Shown: in pieces, positions 15,021 through 21,941 of the stretch | How positions within the stretch are numbered: position 1 is the stretch's first letter | Layout of the letters: each line of letters opens with the position of its first letter | Assembly: GCF_947077765.1 (NCBI RefSeq) | Contig: NZ_CAMTTF010000004.1 | Location: 186,001-250,000, forward strand | Reading direction: 5' to 3' | DNA: 64,000 nucleotides | Source: Salinibacter grassmerensis | Lineage (GTDB): Bacteria > Bacteroidota > Rhodothermia > Rhodothermales > Salinibacteraceae | Program-made: the position numbers and the translations under genes | The notes under the pieces: generated by a model | What the model was told of the DNA's origin: nothing | Databases searched by the model: none | Seen by the model: the letters and a program-made list of their open reading frames with translations, nothing else

Positions 15021-15289
15021 GTGCACGTCTTTACTGAAGCAGGTGGGGGATCCTCGTGTCGTTCGTATGTGCGGGGACAGCGCCAGATTCTCCGTATCGC
15101 CTCCCAAACGAGACCGGGCCGTCCCTGTCGCCCGCCTGCGGCCAGCTGCACACCGGGGTCGGCGCGGCAGCTAAAAATGGGAACTTGACGGTTCTTTTAT
15201 GGCCGAGAAACCAGCAGGAGCATCGAATCTCGTGCCGGCCCCTCTCGTTCGCCTCACCACGTCGGTTTCCCTCCAAGTTCTTCGTGTCC

Positions 15290-17101
15290 ATGCCCGAGCC
15301 CGAATCGTCCGAGCCCGACGCGGCCTCGCCCGTAGACGATGCCCCCGAGGCCGTCCCCGATACGCCACCGCTCGACCCGTACACGGCCCACTACCCCTCG
15401 TGGGCCCGGGAACTGGCGCGGAAGTACTTCACGAAGACGGTGTCCACCTTCATCCTCCACGGCGATATTCGCGACGTGGTGCCGACGGAAGACCGCGACG
15501 GCGCCCGCATTTACCCGCCGCTCCGGCGCTTCCTGACCGACGACCTGTTTGCCGCCCGCGACGTGGTGGTCTTCTACGACCGCAGCGCCGGAATCCACTT
15601 CGCGGACGCGGCCTCCCGGCAAGACTTCAGCCGCGCCCTGGCCGGGGAGGAGAGCCTCGCCGGCACCGAATACGAGAACAACCTCCCGAAGGCCCCCAAC
15701 AAGGTCTTCGAGCTCCTCGAGAACTACTTCCGTCTCCGCCTCTCGAACGGCACTCGGGTGGCCTGCGTCGTCGACTACGCGGAGACGGTGGCCCCCATGG
15801 CCGAGGCGTCGATGTACTCGGCGCAGGACCGACAGTCGCTCGTGTACCTGCAGAAGTGGTCCCGCGACGCGCTCTTCCTGGAGAACGACTTCACGCTCAC
15901 CCTCCTCACCGAAAACCTAACGGATCTGAACCAACAGCTCGTCCAGAGCCCCCACACCGCCGAGATTTACGTCCCGATTCCCGAGGGGGACGACCGGCAG
16001 GCATACATCGACTGGGCACTGGACGAGCGGGGCGACCTGTTCCGGGCGCACTCGGACGTGTCCCCGGAGGCCCTCGCCCAGAACACGGCGGGCCTCAACT
16101 ACACCCAGCTGCGGACGATCCTGGCCGACGTGCTGGAAAACCAGAACCGACTGACCGCCGCGACGCTCTCCGACCTGAAGAAGGAGTTCATCGAGGCGGA
16201 GGCGTATGGGATGCTTGAGTTTATCGAGACGGACAACTCGCTGGACCTGATCGCGGGCCACACGGAGGCGAAGCGCCACCTGCGACAGGCCGCCCACGCG
16301 GTGCAGACGGGGCAGCACGACGTGCTCCCGATGGGATACCTCGTGAGCGGGCCCGTGGGCTGCGGCAAGACCTTCCTCATCAACTGCTTCGCCGGGGAAA
16401 TTGGGATTCCGATGGTGAAGCTCAAGAACTTCCGCTCGCAGTGGCAGGGCGTGACGGAGGGCAACCTGGAGAAGATTCTGAACCTGCTGGAGGCAATGAC
16501 GCCGGTGGCCGTCATGATCGACGAGGCCGACGCGGCCCTTGGGAACCGCGACATGCAGGGCGACAGCGGCGTGAGCCAGCGCGTCTTCTCACAGATCGTC
16601 TCGTTCATGAGCGACCCGGCGCACCGGGGGCGCGTGATCTTCTTCCTCGTCACGGCCCGCCCCGACCTGATGCCGGTGGACCTCAAGCGACAGGGGCGCG
16701 CCGAGGAGCACCTCTCTCTTTTCTACCCGCACAGCCGCGCGGACCGGGAGGAACTCCTGCAGGTGATGATGCGCCGAACGGGCGTGGACCTGCCGGTCGA
16801 AGAGGTCCCCCCTGAACTGCTAGAGGGCGAGCGGACCTACAGCGGGGCCGACATGGAGGCCGTCCTGACCCGCGCCGCCTTCCGTGCCGCCGGGTCGAAC
16901 GACGGGGCCGTGACGCCGGCCCTCCTGCAGGAAACGGTGAACGACTTCATTCCGCCCACCTACCCGACGGAGGTGGAGCTCCAGCAGCTCGCCGCCGTGC
17001 TGGAGTGCACGAGCCGCGACCTGCTCCCGGAGCGCTTCCGATCGATGAAGCGGGAGGAGGTCGTCGAGCGGCTCGAACAGCTAAAGCGAACGGTGGGCTA
17101 G
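15290..17101 (+). CDS. Two-module AAA ATPase with degenerate first module (Ycf46-like)
   Basis: 603 residues from the ATG at 15290 (MPEPESSEPDAASPVDD). The second module (residues about 315-540) is a complete AAA domain: GPVGCGKTF (Walker A, near 353), VAVMIDEADAAL (Walker B, near 407), a sensor-1-like FFLVTARPDLMP and an arginine-rich LKRQGRAEEH. The first module (about 35-250) looks like an AAA core without Walker A: VACVVDYAETVAP resembles a Walker B strand and LTLLTENLTDLN a sensor 1 strand. This two-part form recalls the Ycf46 group. Target unknown. The acidic Pro-rich N-terminus is probably unstructured. It has a gene-free 5' side and is followed by the amidohydrolase trio. Confidence 0.8.
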   Translation: MPEPESSEPDAASPVDDAPEAVPDTPPLDPYTAHYPSWARELARKYFTKTVSTFILHGDIRDVVPTEDRDGARIYPPLRRFLTDDLFAARDVVVFYDRSAGIHFADAASRQDFSRALAGEESLAGTEYENNLPKAPNKVFELLENYFRLRLSNGTRVACVVDYAETVAPMAEASMYSAQDRQSLVYLQKWSRDALFLENDFTLTLLTENLTDLNQQLVQSPHTAEIYVPIPEGDDRQAYIDWALDERGDLFRAHSDVSPEALAQNTAGLNYTQLRTILADVLENQNRLTAATLSDLKKEFIEAEAYGMLEFIETDNSLDLIAGHTEAKRHLRQAAHAVQTGQHDVLPMGYLVSGPVGCGKTFLINCFAGEIGIPMVKLKNFRSQWQGVTEGNLEKILNLLEAMTPVAVMIDEADAALGNRDMQGDSGVSQRVFSQIVSFMSDPAHRGRVIFFLVTARPDLMPVDLKRQGRAEEHLSLFYPHSRADREELLQVMMRRTGVDLPVEEVPPELLEGERTYSGADMEAVLTRAAFRAAGSNDGAVTPALLQETVNDFIPPTYPTEVELQQLAAVLECTSRDLLPERFRSMKREEVVERLEQLKRTVG

Positions 17102-17270: not shown

Positions 17271-19010
17271 ATGACTGCTTCGACATTTCGCCGCTACGGA
17301 CTCGGCCTTCTCAGCCTCGTCCTGTTGGCCCTGCCGTCTCGCCTCTCTGCCCAGGACTACGAGGTGCCGACGGTGACCGACACGTACGCCCTTCAGAACG
17401 CCCGCGTCGTCCAGGCCCCGGGGCAGGTGCTCGAATCGGCCACCGTCGTCGTGCGGGATGGTGTGATCGACGCCGTGGGCCCGGACGCCGAGGTGCCGTA
17501 CGACGCCCGCACCATCGAGGCGGACTCGCTCGTGGTCTACGCCGGCTTCATCGACGGACTCTCGCACGCGGGGGTCGAAATGCCGGAGACCGAGGACGAG
17601 GACGTCGACGACCCCGGGAACCCGCCCCCCGACGCGGCGGGCATTCAGCCGGACCGGTCCGTCCGCCCGTTCCTGACCCCCGACGAGTCGGACTTGCAGT
17701 CGCTGCGGAAGGCCGGGTTTACTCTCGGCCACGTCGCTCCGGAGGGACAGATGCTTCCCGGCACCAGCGCGCACGTCTTCTACGGCGGGGAGACGGCCAA
17801 CGACATGGTCCTGGAGACTGCCCCCACCCTCTTCGCCCAAATCCAGACGTCCGCCGGCTACGTGTACCCGGCCACGGACATGGCCGTGATCGCACAGATG
17901 CGGCAGTTGTACCGCGAGGCGGAGCGCCGACAGCAGCTTGAGGCGGCCTACGAACAGGACCCTGCGGGCCGCCCGCAGCCGCCCCAGGACCCGCAGCACA
18001 GCGCGCTCTTTTCTGTGCTGGACGGCGAGCAGCCCCTCGCCTTCTACGCCGACGAGGCGCTCTCCCTCCACCGCATCCTTGCGCTGCACCAGGAGCTCGA
18101 CTTCCCGCTCGTGCTGGCCGGGCTCGGGGAGAGCCACGAAATGGTCTCTACGCTTCAGGGGGTCGACGCGCCGCTCTTTCTGACGCTCGATCTGCCCGAG
18201 GCGCCCACGCGGTCGACGGGTCAGGACACCACTGTGGTCGACACCACCAGCACCCCGTCCCGCTACTACAACCCGGACCTGAGGGTCCTGTCGCACGAGA
18301 CAGTCGGCGAGGAGGACGAGAACCTTGAGCTCCGGCACGCCGCCGAGCGCCAGACATACCTAGAAACGGCGGCTACCCTACACGAGGCCGGACTTGAGTT
18401 TGGGTTCACGACCCGCGAGGCCGATCCGGGAGACGTGCGCGACAACCTCCGCACAATGATCGAACAGGGCCTGCCCGAACAGACGGCGCTGGCCGCTCTC
18501 ACGACGCGTCCGGCCACCCAGCTTGGCCTCAATGACCGCCTCGGAACTGTGGAGGAGGGCAAGATCGCCAACCTGGTCGTCACCGACGGATCGTACTTCT
18601 CGAACGACACGGCGGTACAGCACGTCTTCGTGGACGGTCGGCTGTACGACTACAGCACCGACGGGTCCGACGAGGGGGAGGTGAGCGGCGACGTGTCCGC
18701 AGTGCTCGGCACGTGGTCGTATACGCTCGAAACCCCACAGGGAGACCTCTCCGGTGAGGTTGCGATCGAGGGCGACCAATCGGGCCTAGACGGCACCTTC
18801 ACCGGCCCGCAGGGCGACGAACAGCCGCTCCAGTCGGTGTCGTTCGACGGCACCACGCTCTCGTTTACGGTGGACTCGCCCCAGGGCGGCTCCGTGTCTG
18901 TCTCGGTGACGGTCGAGGGCGATACCTTTGACGGGTCCGCCTCCACGTCCGGGGGGTCGTTCCCCATCTCTGGGGAGCGCACGAGCACCCCCGGCACGGC
19001 GAGGAAGTAG
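17271..19010 (+). CDS. Exported amidohydrolase-family protein with incomplete metal site
   Basis: 579 residues from the ATG at 17271, which gives a signal peptide (LGLLSLVLLALPSRLSAQ). The amidohydrolase beta-barrel is recognisable (ALQNARVVQAPG, TVVVRDGVIDAVGPDAE, the C-terminal GLNDRLGTVEEGKIANLVV). The HxH metal motif is replaced: YAGFIDGLSHAG keeps only the second His, and the region that should hold the metal Asp reads FGFTTREAD. It therefore looks like a pseudoenzyme. An extra C-terminal beta domain of about 110 residues (SAVLGTWSYTLETPQGDLSG onward) is unusual for the family. First of three paralogous genes in a row; the next ATG is 111 bp away. Confidence 0.85.
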   Translation: MTASTFRRYGLGLLSLVLLALPSRLSAQDYEVPTVTDTYALQNARVVQAPGQVLESATVVVRDGVIDAVGPDAEVPYDARTIEADSLVVYAGFIDGLSHAGVEMPETEDEDVDDPGNPPPDAAGIQPDRSVRPFLTPDESDLQSLRKAGFTLGHVAPEGQMLPGTSAHVFYGGETANDMVLETAPTLFAQIQTSAGYVYPATDMAVIAQMRQLYREAERRQQLEAAYEQDPAGRPQPPQDPQHSALFSVLDGEQPLAFYADEALSLHRILALHQELDFPLVLAGLGESHEMVSTLQGVDAPLFLTLDLPEAPTRSTGQDTTVVDTTSTPSRYYNPDLRVLSHETVGEEDENLELRHAAERQTYLETAATLHEAGLEFGFTTREADPGDVRDNLRTMIEQGLPEQTALAALTTRPATQLGLNDRLGTVEEGKIANLVVTDGSYFSNDTAVQHVFVDGRLYDYSTDGSDEGEVSGDVSAVLGTWSYTLETPQGDLSGEVAIEGDQSGLDGTFTGPQGDEQPLQSVSFDGTTLSFTVDSPQGGSVSVSVTVEGDTFDGSASTSGGSFPISGERTSTPGTARK

Positions 19011-19121
19011 CGTTTGACCGTCCTCGTGCTCCACAAAGAGGGCGATTCTAAATCCCCGGCCGACCCCGCGCTCCGGCCTTTCCTTTCGACGATGTTTTGC
19101 GTTCTGGCTTTCCGCTCCCCT

Positions 19122-20549
19122 ATGCTCTCCCTCTTTCCCTCCCGCCTTTCCTTTGCTCTCGGCGTCCTCGCCGCCGTCCTGCTGGTCGCCACGCCCCTGC
19201 AGGCCCAAGACCGGCTGCGCGGCGACGCCCCGGACGACTGGCTCATTCAGGACGCCACCGTGCTGACCGTCACGAACGGCACCATCGAGAACGGCGACAT
19301 CCTCGTCCGGGACGGCGACATCGCCCAGGTTGGACAAGACCTCTCCGCCCCCAGCGGCGTCGAGACGTACGACGCCAGCGGCGAGTACGTGATGCCCGGC
19401 ATCGTGGAGGCCCACCAGCACATGGCCATCAGCGACGTCAACGAGGCCACCAACCCCGTCACCGCCGAGGTCGGCGTGGGCGACGTGCTCAACCCCTACG
19501 ACGTCGGCATTTACCGCGCGCTGGCGGGGGGCGTGACGACCGCCCACGTGATGCACGGCTCCGCCAACCCCATCGGGGGGCGCAACGAAACGATCAAGCT
19601 GCGCTACGGCGTCACGAATCCCGATCGCCTGGAGATGGAGGGTGCGCCCCGGACAATCAAGTTTGCCCTCGGGGAAAACCCGACCGGGCTGTACGGCCAG
19701 GGCCGCGACCAGGTGCCCCGCACCCGCATGGGCGTCGAGCAGGTCATCCGGACGGCCCTCACCGAGGCCGAGCGCTACATGGAGGCGAAGCAGGCCTACC
19801 AGAACGGAGAGCGCCCTCGTCCCCCGGCCCATAGCGAGCGGATGGAGGTGCTCGCGGGCGTCCTGCAGGGCGACGTTCTGGTGCAGACCCACGGCTACCG
19901 GGCCGACGAGATGCTCATGCTCATGGATGTCTTCGAGGACTTCGGCATCCAGGACCTCGTCTTCCACCACGCGAACGAGGGCTTCAAGATTGCCCCGGAG
20001 CTGGCCGCCTTTGGGGACAATGGCGCCGGCGCGACGGTCTTCTCCGACTGGTGGTCGTACAAGTTCGAGGTCTACTACTCCACCGCCTACAACGCCACCG
20101 TCCTCGCCCAGAACGGCGTCAACGCGTCCATCAACTCCGACATTCCGGGGGAGCAGCGCGACCTGTACCTCCAGGCCGCCAAGACGCAGCGGTACGGCGA
20201 CCTCTCGGACACCCAGGCCCTCAGGCTCGTGACCCTCAACCCCGCCCGCCAGCTCGGCATCGCCGACCGCGTGGGGTCCATTGAAGAAGGGAAGGCCGCC
20301 GACCTCGCCATCTTCAGCGAGCACCCGCTGTCCGTCTACACCAAACCGCAGCGGACCTACGTCGACGGGGTCGTGCGCTTCGACCACGACCAAGACCCCG
20401 ACGACATGCGGCTCCGCGTGGACCCGGAAGGCACCGTCGACCTGGCCCGGGACGGCTGGAGCCGCCACGCCGCCCACAGTTGCTTGAAGGGCGTGACCCA
20501 GTTGCGCGCCACCCGCAACGGCGTATCCCTCGAAAACACGGGCCGGTAA
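19122..20549 (+). CDS. Exported amidohydrolase, metal site intact
   Basis: 475 residues from the ATG at 19122, with signal peptide SFALGVLAAVLLVATPLQAQ. Metal ligands are all in place: EAHQHMA (HxH near residue 97), LVQTHGY and LVFHHANEG (later His ligands), and ASINSDIPG (Asp). The C-terminal LGIADRVGSIEEGKAADLAI is typical of imidazolonepropionase-like amidohydrolases. It probably hydrolyses a cyclic amide or a peptide-like bond in the periplasm; the substrate is unknown. It is the middle gene of the trio and the only one with a full metal site, so its neighbours may be partners in one complex. Confidence 0.9.
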   Translation: MLSLFPSRLSFALGVLAAVLLVATPLQAQDRLRGDAPDDWLIQDATVLTVTNGTIENGDILVRDGDIAQVGQDLSAPSGVETYDASGEYVMPGIVEAHQHMAISDVNEATNPVTAEVGVGDVLNPYDVGIYRALAGGVTTAHVMHGSANPIGGRNETIKLRYGVTNPDRLEMEGAPRTIKFALGENPTGLYGQGRDQVPRTRMGVEQVIRTALTEAERYMEAKQAYQNGERPRPPAHSERMEVLAGVLQGDVLVQTHGYRADEMLMLMDVFEDFGIQDLVFHHANEGFKIAPELAAFGDNGAGATVFSDWWSYKFEVYYSTAYNATVLAQNGVNASINSDIPGEQRDLYLQAAKTQRYGDLSDTQALRLVTLNPARQLGIADRVGSIEEGKAADLAIFSEHPLSVYTKPQRTYVDGVVRFDHDQDPDDMRLRVDPEGTVDLARDGWSRHAAHSCLKGVTQLRATRNGVSLENTGR

Positions 20550-20597
20550 GTCCCGCCCACTGCTTCTCTGATCGCCTGCTGACCAACACGTTTGCTC

Positions 20598-21941
20598 ATG
20601 CTATCTCCCTCCCGCCCGCGAATTCAGAGTGCATCCGCGGTGCTGACCCTGTTCGTTGCCCTCCTCCTGGCCCTGCCCGCCCACGCCCAGAAGCAGCCCG
20701 GCTTCCAGGGGCCGTTTGCCCTCACGAACGCTCAAGTGATCGTCGCCCCCGGCGACACCCTTGACAGCGGCACGGTCGTCATCCGCGACGACTCGATCGC
20801 CGCCGTGGGGCCAAACGTATCGGTGCCTTCTGACGCACAAACGTTCGATCTCTCGGGCCAGATGGTGTATCCCGGGTTCATCGACAGCGGCACGCACCTT
20901 GGCCTCGCAGAGATCGGCTCGCTTCCGGAGACGCAGGACTTCAACGAGGTCGGCGACCTCACGGCCCACATGAACGCCCTCACGGCCGTAAACCCTAGCA
21001 CCGTGCACGTGCCCACGACGCGCGCTCACGGCATCACCTCCGTCATCACGGAGCCGGAGAACGGCATTTTACCCGGGACGTCGGCCCTTATTGGCCTCCA
21101 CGGCTACACCCCCGAGCAGATGCACCTGGGAGGGGTGACCCTCACGAAGCTGAACTTCCCGTCCGTGGGGCGTCAGGGCCCCTCGGACGACCGGTCGCCG
21201 GATGCAATCCAGAAGGAAGCTGAGAAGGCCCTCAACCAACTCAATGACTTGTGGGCCCAGGCCGAGCGGTACGCCCGGATCGACTCGGCGGTGGCGGAGC
21301 AGCCCGAGGCGCGGCGCCAGCCGGAGTTCGTGCCCGCCATGGAGGGACTGCTGCCCGTCATTCAAGGCACACAGCCCCTCATGATCTCCGCCAACGCGGC
21401 GGCCGACATCTCAAAGGCCCTTGACTGGGCGGAGGAGCGCGGCGTGCTCGACCAGGTTATTCTGAGCGGGGCGCTGGAGGGGTGGCGCGTCGCCGACGAG
21501 ATCGCGGCCGCCGACGTCCCGGTGTTGGTTGGCTCCATCATGCAACCCCCGAGTCGGGAGAGCGACCGCTACGACAAGGCGTACCGCACTCCTGCCCTCC
21601 TCCACGACGCCGGTGCAACCGTGGCGCTCCGCTCCGGCAAGACCGAGAACGTGCGAAACCTCGTCTTCCACGCCGGCTTCGCCGCCTCCCATGGGCTCGG
21701 CAAGACGGAGGCCCTCCGCGCCATCACGACCACCCCGGCGCGCATCTTTGGCGTCGCGGACCAGGTGGGAACCATCGAGGCCGGCAAGCGGGCCAATCTC
21801 TTCGTCGCCGACGGCGATCCACTTCAGCCCGCCACCGACGTGCAGCATCTCTTCATCGACGGGTACAAGCTGCCGCTCGAAAACCGGGCCACGAAGCTGT
21901 ACGACGAGTTCCTGAACCGGAATCCAGGGCTGAAGAAGTAG
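20598..21941 (+). CDS. Exported amidohydrolase-family protein with incomplete metal site
   Basis: 447 residues from the ATG at 20598 (MLSPSRPRIQSASAVLTLFV), signal peptide cut near AHAQ; a TTG two codons earlier is also in frame. The fold is amidohydrolase-like (LTNAQVIVAPGDTLDSGTVV, and IFGVADQVGTIEAGKRANLFV at the end). HxH reads YPGFIDSGTHLGL, so the first His is Gly, and the expected metal Asp position reads VALRSGKTENV. It is closer to the first gene of the trio than to the second in these losses. It starts 48 bp after the middle gene, so cotranslation in one operon is likely. Confidence 0.85.
   Translation: MLSPSRPRIQSASAVLTLFVALLLALPAHAQKQPGFQGPFALTNAQVIVAPGDTLDSGTVVIRDDSIAAVGPNVSVPSDAQTFDLSGQMVYPGFIDSGTHLGLAEIGSLPETQDFNEVGDLTAHMNALTAVNPSTVHVPTTRAHGITSVITEPENGILPGTSALIGLHGYTPEQMHLGGVTLTKLNFPSVGRQGPSDDRSPDAIQKEAEKALNQLNDLWAQAERYARIDSAVAEQPEARRQPEFVPAMEGLLPVIQGTQPLMISANAAADISKALDWAEERGVLDQVILSGALEGWRVADEIAAADVPVLVGSIMQPPSRESDRYDKAYRTPALLHDAGATVALRSGKTENVRNLVFHAGFAASHGLGKTEALRAITTTPARIFGVADQVGTIEAGKRANLFVADGDPLQPATDVQHLFIDGYKLPLENRATKLYDEFLNRNPGLKK

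Follow-up and report, generated by a model that had tools for sequence, protein, structure and literature searches.

The window, a stretch of 64,000 nucleotides (positions 186001-250000 of contig C4 in the 3.78-Mb genome of Salinibacter grassmerensis, G000), has on its forward strand the three genes, P0001, P0002 and P0003, that are studied here. Their layout, in window coordinates, is as follows.

17271..19010, + strand: open reading frame of 579 aa, pseudo1 (P0001), an exported non-catalytic amidohydrolase homologue with a C-terminal all-beta domain
19011..19121, + strand: gap of 111 bp between pseudo1 and cat
19122..20549, + strand: open reading frame of 475 aa, cat (P0002), an exported catalytic amidohydrolase
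20550..20597, + strand: gap of 48 bp between cat and pseudo2
20598..21941, + strand: open reading frame of 447 aa, pseudo2 (P0003), an exported non-catalytic amidohydrolase homologue

The original prediction was of three successive exported amidohydrolase paralogues, and this is what is present: the ORFs are on the same strand, their N-termini are all of Sec type (ending SAQ, QAQ and HAQ in gene order), and pairwise BLAST and MAFFT alignment give 24-32% identity, with pseudo2 being 32% identical to pseudo1 and 27% to cat. An alternative ATG start for cat is possible at 19092. Located 5′ of the trio (window 15056-17101) is an AAA+ ATPase-like ORF with relatives in 11 Salinibacter-group loci and not in the rest.

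Membership of the amidohydrolase superfamily is clear for all three. Cat scores 59.1 bits against Pfam Amidohydro_1 (PF01979, cut-off 25), and the outer two proteins are likewise above the Pfam cut-off and match 3OOQ, the structure of TM0814 from Thermotoga maritima. The match of cat to 3OOQ is full-length (E 2.4e-62, 214 bits over 381 residues), as is that of pseudo2 (E 2.3e-29), with the ligands substituted. For pseudo1 an AlphaFold2 model (pLDDT 86.3, pTM 0.73) has 3OOQ as its top Foldseek match (E 5.5e-26, TM 0.82 on the target). The fold is that of 3OOQ in both outer proteins. The earlier designation ‘imidazolonepropionase-like’ is apt at the level of superfamily and not at that of family, since the imidazolonepropionase model (HutI, TIGR01224, cut-off 298) is not reached by cat (53.3 bits) or pseudo2 (47.7 bits) and the closest solved relative is 3OOQ. 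Xaa-Pro dipeptidase (NF051886) was also rejected as the exact family, pseudo2 scoring 57.1 and cat 47.3 bits against a cut-off of 500, as was the pseudo-dihydroorotase (PyrC′) of aspartate transcarbamoylase: dihydroorotase models are far under their cut-offs and no recurrent neighbour beyond the trio, such as the transcarbamoylase that would be expected, is found across the wider set of loci. The additional C-terminal beta domain foreseen for the first protein is modelled by AlphaFold2 as eight strands at about residues 480-572, with block pLDDT mostly 83-94; no Pfam family is above cut-off for it (window 18700-19007, about residues 478-579 of P0001). A weak relative of this domain (39% over 53 residues, E 4e-4) occurs within another protein of this genome that resembles purple acid phosphatases (L216:1346-3127).

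What sets the middle protein apart is its metal site. In P0002 numbering the ligand columns are H99-H101-K181-H258-H284-D341, and cat has kept the full set of 3OOQ metal-site residues (HxH, Lys, His, His and Asp); the earlier reading that it retains HxH, both later His residues and the Asp is borne out by the alignment. At the same six columns pseudo1 has L-H-A-Y-G-R and pseudo2 G-H-K-S-G-G, so that the second His of HxH is all that is left in the outer proteins, apart from Lys181 in pseudo2. The motifs that had been singled out by eye (EAHQH and NSD in the middle protein, FIDGLSH and FTTRE in the first, FIDSGTH and RSGKT in the third) do fall at matching alignment columns. The accompanying claim, that the outer two lack the first HxH His and the metal Asp, was correct as far as it went, but with nearly every ligand replaced in both proteins, the later His residues included, it understated the loss. 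Cat is most likely, judging by these residues, a metal-dependent amidohydrolase, and is the predicted catalytic member of the trio.

The same division is found in relatives, where conservation of the losses had been proposed as a check. In the related loci read, all 149 cat copies have the five His/Asp ligands (H99, H101, H258, H284 and D341), with Lys181 also invariant, and more than two of the five are present in none of 121 pseudo1, 125 pseudo2 and 24 pair-type pseudo copies (0/270 in total), which does not fit with metal-dependent catalysis by the outer two. A substitute His/Asp metal site in the latter, which would have counted against the original prediction, was sought, and no conserved His set was found: pseudo1 has no His column conserved at 80% or more in either of its subfamilies (81 and 40 sequences), and neither an HxH nor any His pair is conserved in pseudo2. 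Most pair-type dead copies (L180-L199) retain the first His of HxH and Lys160, the rest being lost; a pair-type dead copy of the window's genome lacks those two as well.

How widespread is the arrangement? A scan of 84,980 species genomes seeded with pseudo2 yielded at least 80 loci, from Salinibacter and its relatives, Balneola, Roseivirga, Algoriphagus, Chryseolinea, Saprospiraceae and others, and in essentially all with enough flanking sequence the order is pseudo1-cat-pseudo2 on one strand. In these loci the full ligand set is present in every middle gene and absent from all outer ones; intact long ORFs are present in about 80. Intergenic gaps in many relatives are short, or the ORFs abut or overlap, and the median match-to-match distance to the downstream pseudo is 111.5 bp. 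Recurring as it does in about 80 genome contigs, the trio pattern is not due to chance. As pseudo2 was the seed of that scan, a second survey started from the catalytic profile: among the matches listed for 198 genomes of the phylum, a same-strand pseudo lies directly downstream of all 96 unfused cat genes, from 67 genomes. Failure of gene order to be kept in relatives, named beforehand as a ground for refutation, is not what either survey encountered. Cat matches occur in 117 and pseudo matches in 118 of the 198 genomes and, among the matches listed, every genome with the former also has the latter; the one extra pseudo-positive genome (G109) has a weak match only (E 8.5e-13).

The window's genome itself has two further live/dead sets, both pairs in which a catalytic gene is followed directly by a gene without the ligands. 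One (C4:181393-184151) is just beyond the window's left edge and the other is at about C3:555900-558470 (L016 and L017, respectively). An N-terminal hydrophobic, export-like stretch is present in nearly all copies, and in fusions it precedes the pseudo1 half. Across the wider set of loci no conserved accessory gene beyond the trio names a pathway. A gene for an exported protein judged by eye to be M28-type-peptidase-like is 3′ of the trio in 21 loci (L094:7466-9577 and equivalents), among them those of Algoriphagus, Roseivirga and Spirosoma. A metagenome-assembled Sulfuricurvum contig (L110) has an Algoriphagus-like trio and neighbours, and is probably misbinned.

In many members of the phylum the catalytic match is within a frame of about 1000 codons. 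All 40 such ORFs examined are pseudo1::cat fusions, with an N-terminal half lacking the ligand set and a C-terminal half possessing it. The next gene is pseudo2 in 33 of the 40 and pseudo2 is not adjacent in the other 7; in the unlinked cases fetched, pseudo2-like genes are present elsewhere in the genome, and two of these (L200 and L203) group with pseudo2. One natural fusion of 988 residues (L142), modelled by AlphaFold2 with 35 natural sequences, has a pLDDT of 86.5 and a whole-chain pTM of 0.84; how the two barrels are placed relative to each other is therefore predicted with confidence, though as evidence of an interface this is indirect. Its top Foldseek match is again 3OOQ. Genetic coupling of the dead copies to an active homologue is constant, whether by adjacency (96/96) or by fusion (the 40 examined). 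On a Hymenobacter volaticus plasmid (L218:3260-6523) the annotation has two ORFs in place of the one fused gene, and a pseudo2 ORF that seems truncated; this plasmid may thus carry a broken copy.

Outside the phylum the sample was of plasmid-collection records. Two live/dead pairs, both exported, are in the sphingomonads Novosphingobium and Qipengyuania, that on a Qipengyuania citrea plasmid (L220:2111-6600) being directly 3′ of a peptide MFS transporter gene. Clostridia, Bacilli and Actinomycetes contribute four catalytic genes that stand alone, with no signal peptide and no adjacent pseudo, and no pseudo copy was found anywhere in the three of these Gram-positive records that were searched (those other than Nonomuraea). 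In this small sample, with five singles including 3OOQ, exported members have a dead partner and cytosolic ones are without.

In a tree of 55 sequences, pseudo and catalytic, the two kinds are separated at a single branch (100/98, and in 100% of bootstrap trees). Rooting with dihydroorotase places all pseudo copies in one clade (99), a placement to be treated with care as the outgroup is long. The subfamilies of the dead copies mirror those of the live: catalytic type I (catI) is sister to the sphingomonad-like type (catP; 100/99), just as pseudo1, pseudo2 and the sphingomonad-like pseudo (psP) come together apart from the pair-type pseudo (ps3; 98/97), which is the counterpart of catII. Within type I the division into trio and fused subclades is repeated in each of pseudo1, cat and pseudo2. 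From this branching we infer that a single duplication came with loss of the metal site, that live and dead copies were inherited as a unit, that the dead one was duplicated again in type I, and that pseudo1 was then fused to cat.

By NG86, dN/dS against S. altiplanensis is 0.125 for pseudo1, 0.089 for cat and 0.098 for pseudo2, and for pseudo1 it is 0.13-0.24 across the Salinibacter/Salinivenus group, to which the comparisons were confined because more distant ones are saturated. All three genes are thus at about 0.1, and selection acts on the dead copies as it does on the live one. Conserved loss of catalytic residues together with retention under selection is one feature by which an enzyme-pseudoenzyme heteromer would be recognized, and the dead copies show it.

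We consider it probable that the products of the trio form a single exported, hetero-oligomeric, metal-dependent amidohydrolase in which the middle protein is catalytic and the outer two are obligate non-catalytic subunits derived from one ancient duplication. The original prediction had offered two possibilities for the outer proteins, structural or regulatory partners in a mixed oligomer, or enzymes of changed chemistry; fusion, co-diversification and purifying selection all favour the former, and the want of a conserved His set in the outer two disfavours the latter. Enzymes of the amidohydrolase superfamily are mostly homo-oligomers. The path envisaged is that a homo-oligomer became a hetero-oligomer: copies descended from the same enzyme would have lost the metal site in one ancient duplication and become the obligate first and third subunits, leaving the middle protein as the sole catalytic one. 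Most likely the dead subunits sit against the catalytic barrel in the places that partner subunits had in the former homo-oligomer, and in these structural or gating positions may stabilize it and shape or gate entry to the active site. Many Bacteroidota have pseudo1 and cat joined in one polypeptide of about 1000 residues, pseudo2 still being separate. Direct binding, stoichiometry and a scaffolding or gating role are what we infer from this. A more specific version, with a phylum-wide, exported 1:1:1 complex of cat, pseudo1 and pseudo2 (two-subunit in other lineages), of one ancient duplication, whose dead subunits complete or gate the live site, we would put at even chances. If it is true, pseudoenzymes would be needed for export and for assembly outside the cytoplasm.

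Might the outer proteins instead be free in the periplasm, as non-catalytic substrate binders or sensors that serve the same pathway without forming a complex? Conserved linkage alone is compatible with separate action in one pathway, and the seven fused loci where pseudo2 is not adjacent, but elsewhere in the genome where sought, are in keeping with this. However, covalent joining of pseudo1 to the catalytic domain in the 40 fused loci, with the confident two-barrel model of one of them, and the derivation of all dead copies from a single duplication of the enzyme itself, whose subfamilies they mirror, make it unlikely. That the outer proteins are enzymes with a changed, metal-independent chemistry based on new residues seems to us quite improbable. 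Pseudo2 does lend it something: type I copies have strongly conserved polar barrel residues of their own (E287, R290, R314, Y319, D320, R347 and N348 in P0002 numbering), and trio pseudo2 orthologues have a conserved G..E..R where cat has H284, E287 and K290. Nevertheless, within one subunit the trio and fused subfamilies have few polar columns in common, pseudo1 has no conserved His, and polar residues may just as well be conserved for an interface. Decaying pseudogenes or annotation artefacts, which loss of catalytic residues might bring to mind, are refuted by the low dN/dS of all three genes, the intact ORFs and phylum-wide conservation, and are scarcely credible.

Returning to the hetero-oligomeric amidohydrolase, its substrate may be a small peptide, a dipeptide or a cyclic amide in the periplasm, though this is a guess made with low confidence. 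Weak hints suggest peptides: the sphingomonad peptide transporter, the M28-peptidase-like gene, and the presence of dipeptidases among the Foldseek structural neighbours of pseudo1 and of the fused protein.

Inactive enzyme copies have usually been studied in animals. Here one large bacterial phylum has a very old live/dead set in about 60% of the genomes sampled. The set comes in three arrangements, as a pair, a trio or a fusion, with one, two or fused dead subunits, and its spread and variety make the question of why an enzyme keeps dead relatives directly testable. There is also a practical side. Many proteins annotated merely as ‘amidohydrolase’ acquire a likely function class, that of non-catalytic subunit, and caution is called for in assigning metal-dependent activity to them.

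An enzyme with an inactive homologous subunit is, as a kind, already known. In mitochondrial processing peptidase and other live/dead pairs each enzyme has one active and one inactive paralogous subunit, though that peptidase differs from the trio in fold, location and chemistry. The CRMP/dihydropyrimidinase-related proteins are amidohydrolase-fold pseudoenzymes, but they are animal and cytosolic, are found neither in an operon nor in a fusion with an active homologue, and provide only weak, short PDB matches to the trio proteins. 3OOQ has the same fold and metal-site residues as cat; however, it groups with the single, non-exported, partnerless Gram-positive proteins, whereas the window's enzyme is exported with two non-catalytic homologues. 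A search of the open-access literature, weak evidence of absence though it is, found no description of the trio's family nor a paper on TM0814/3OOQ, and apparently new are the family itself, its ratio of two dead copies to one live, its being exported and its occurrence throughout the phylum. Closest in spirit are the inactive dihydroorotase (PyrC′) kept for assembly of bacterial aspartate transcarbamoylase and the pseudo-DHOase domain of fungal CAD-like proteins (PMC4581275), each a member of the amidohydrolase superfamily with a dead metal site retained for the assembly of an enzyme complex. PyrC′, though, scaffolds an unrelated transcarbamoylase, while the dead copies of the trio would partner their own active homologue, outside the cytoplasm and with one or two per catalytic subunit.
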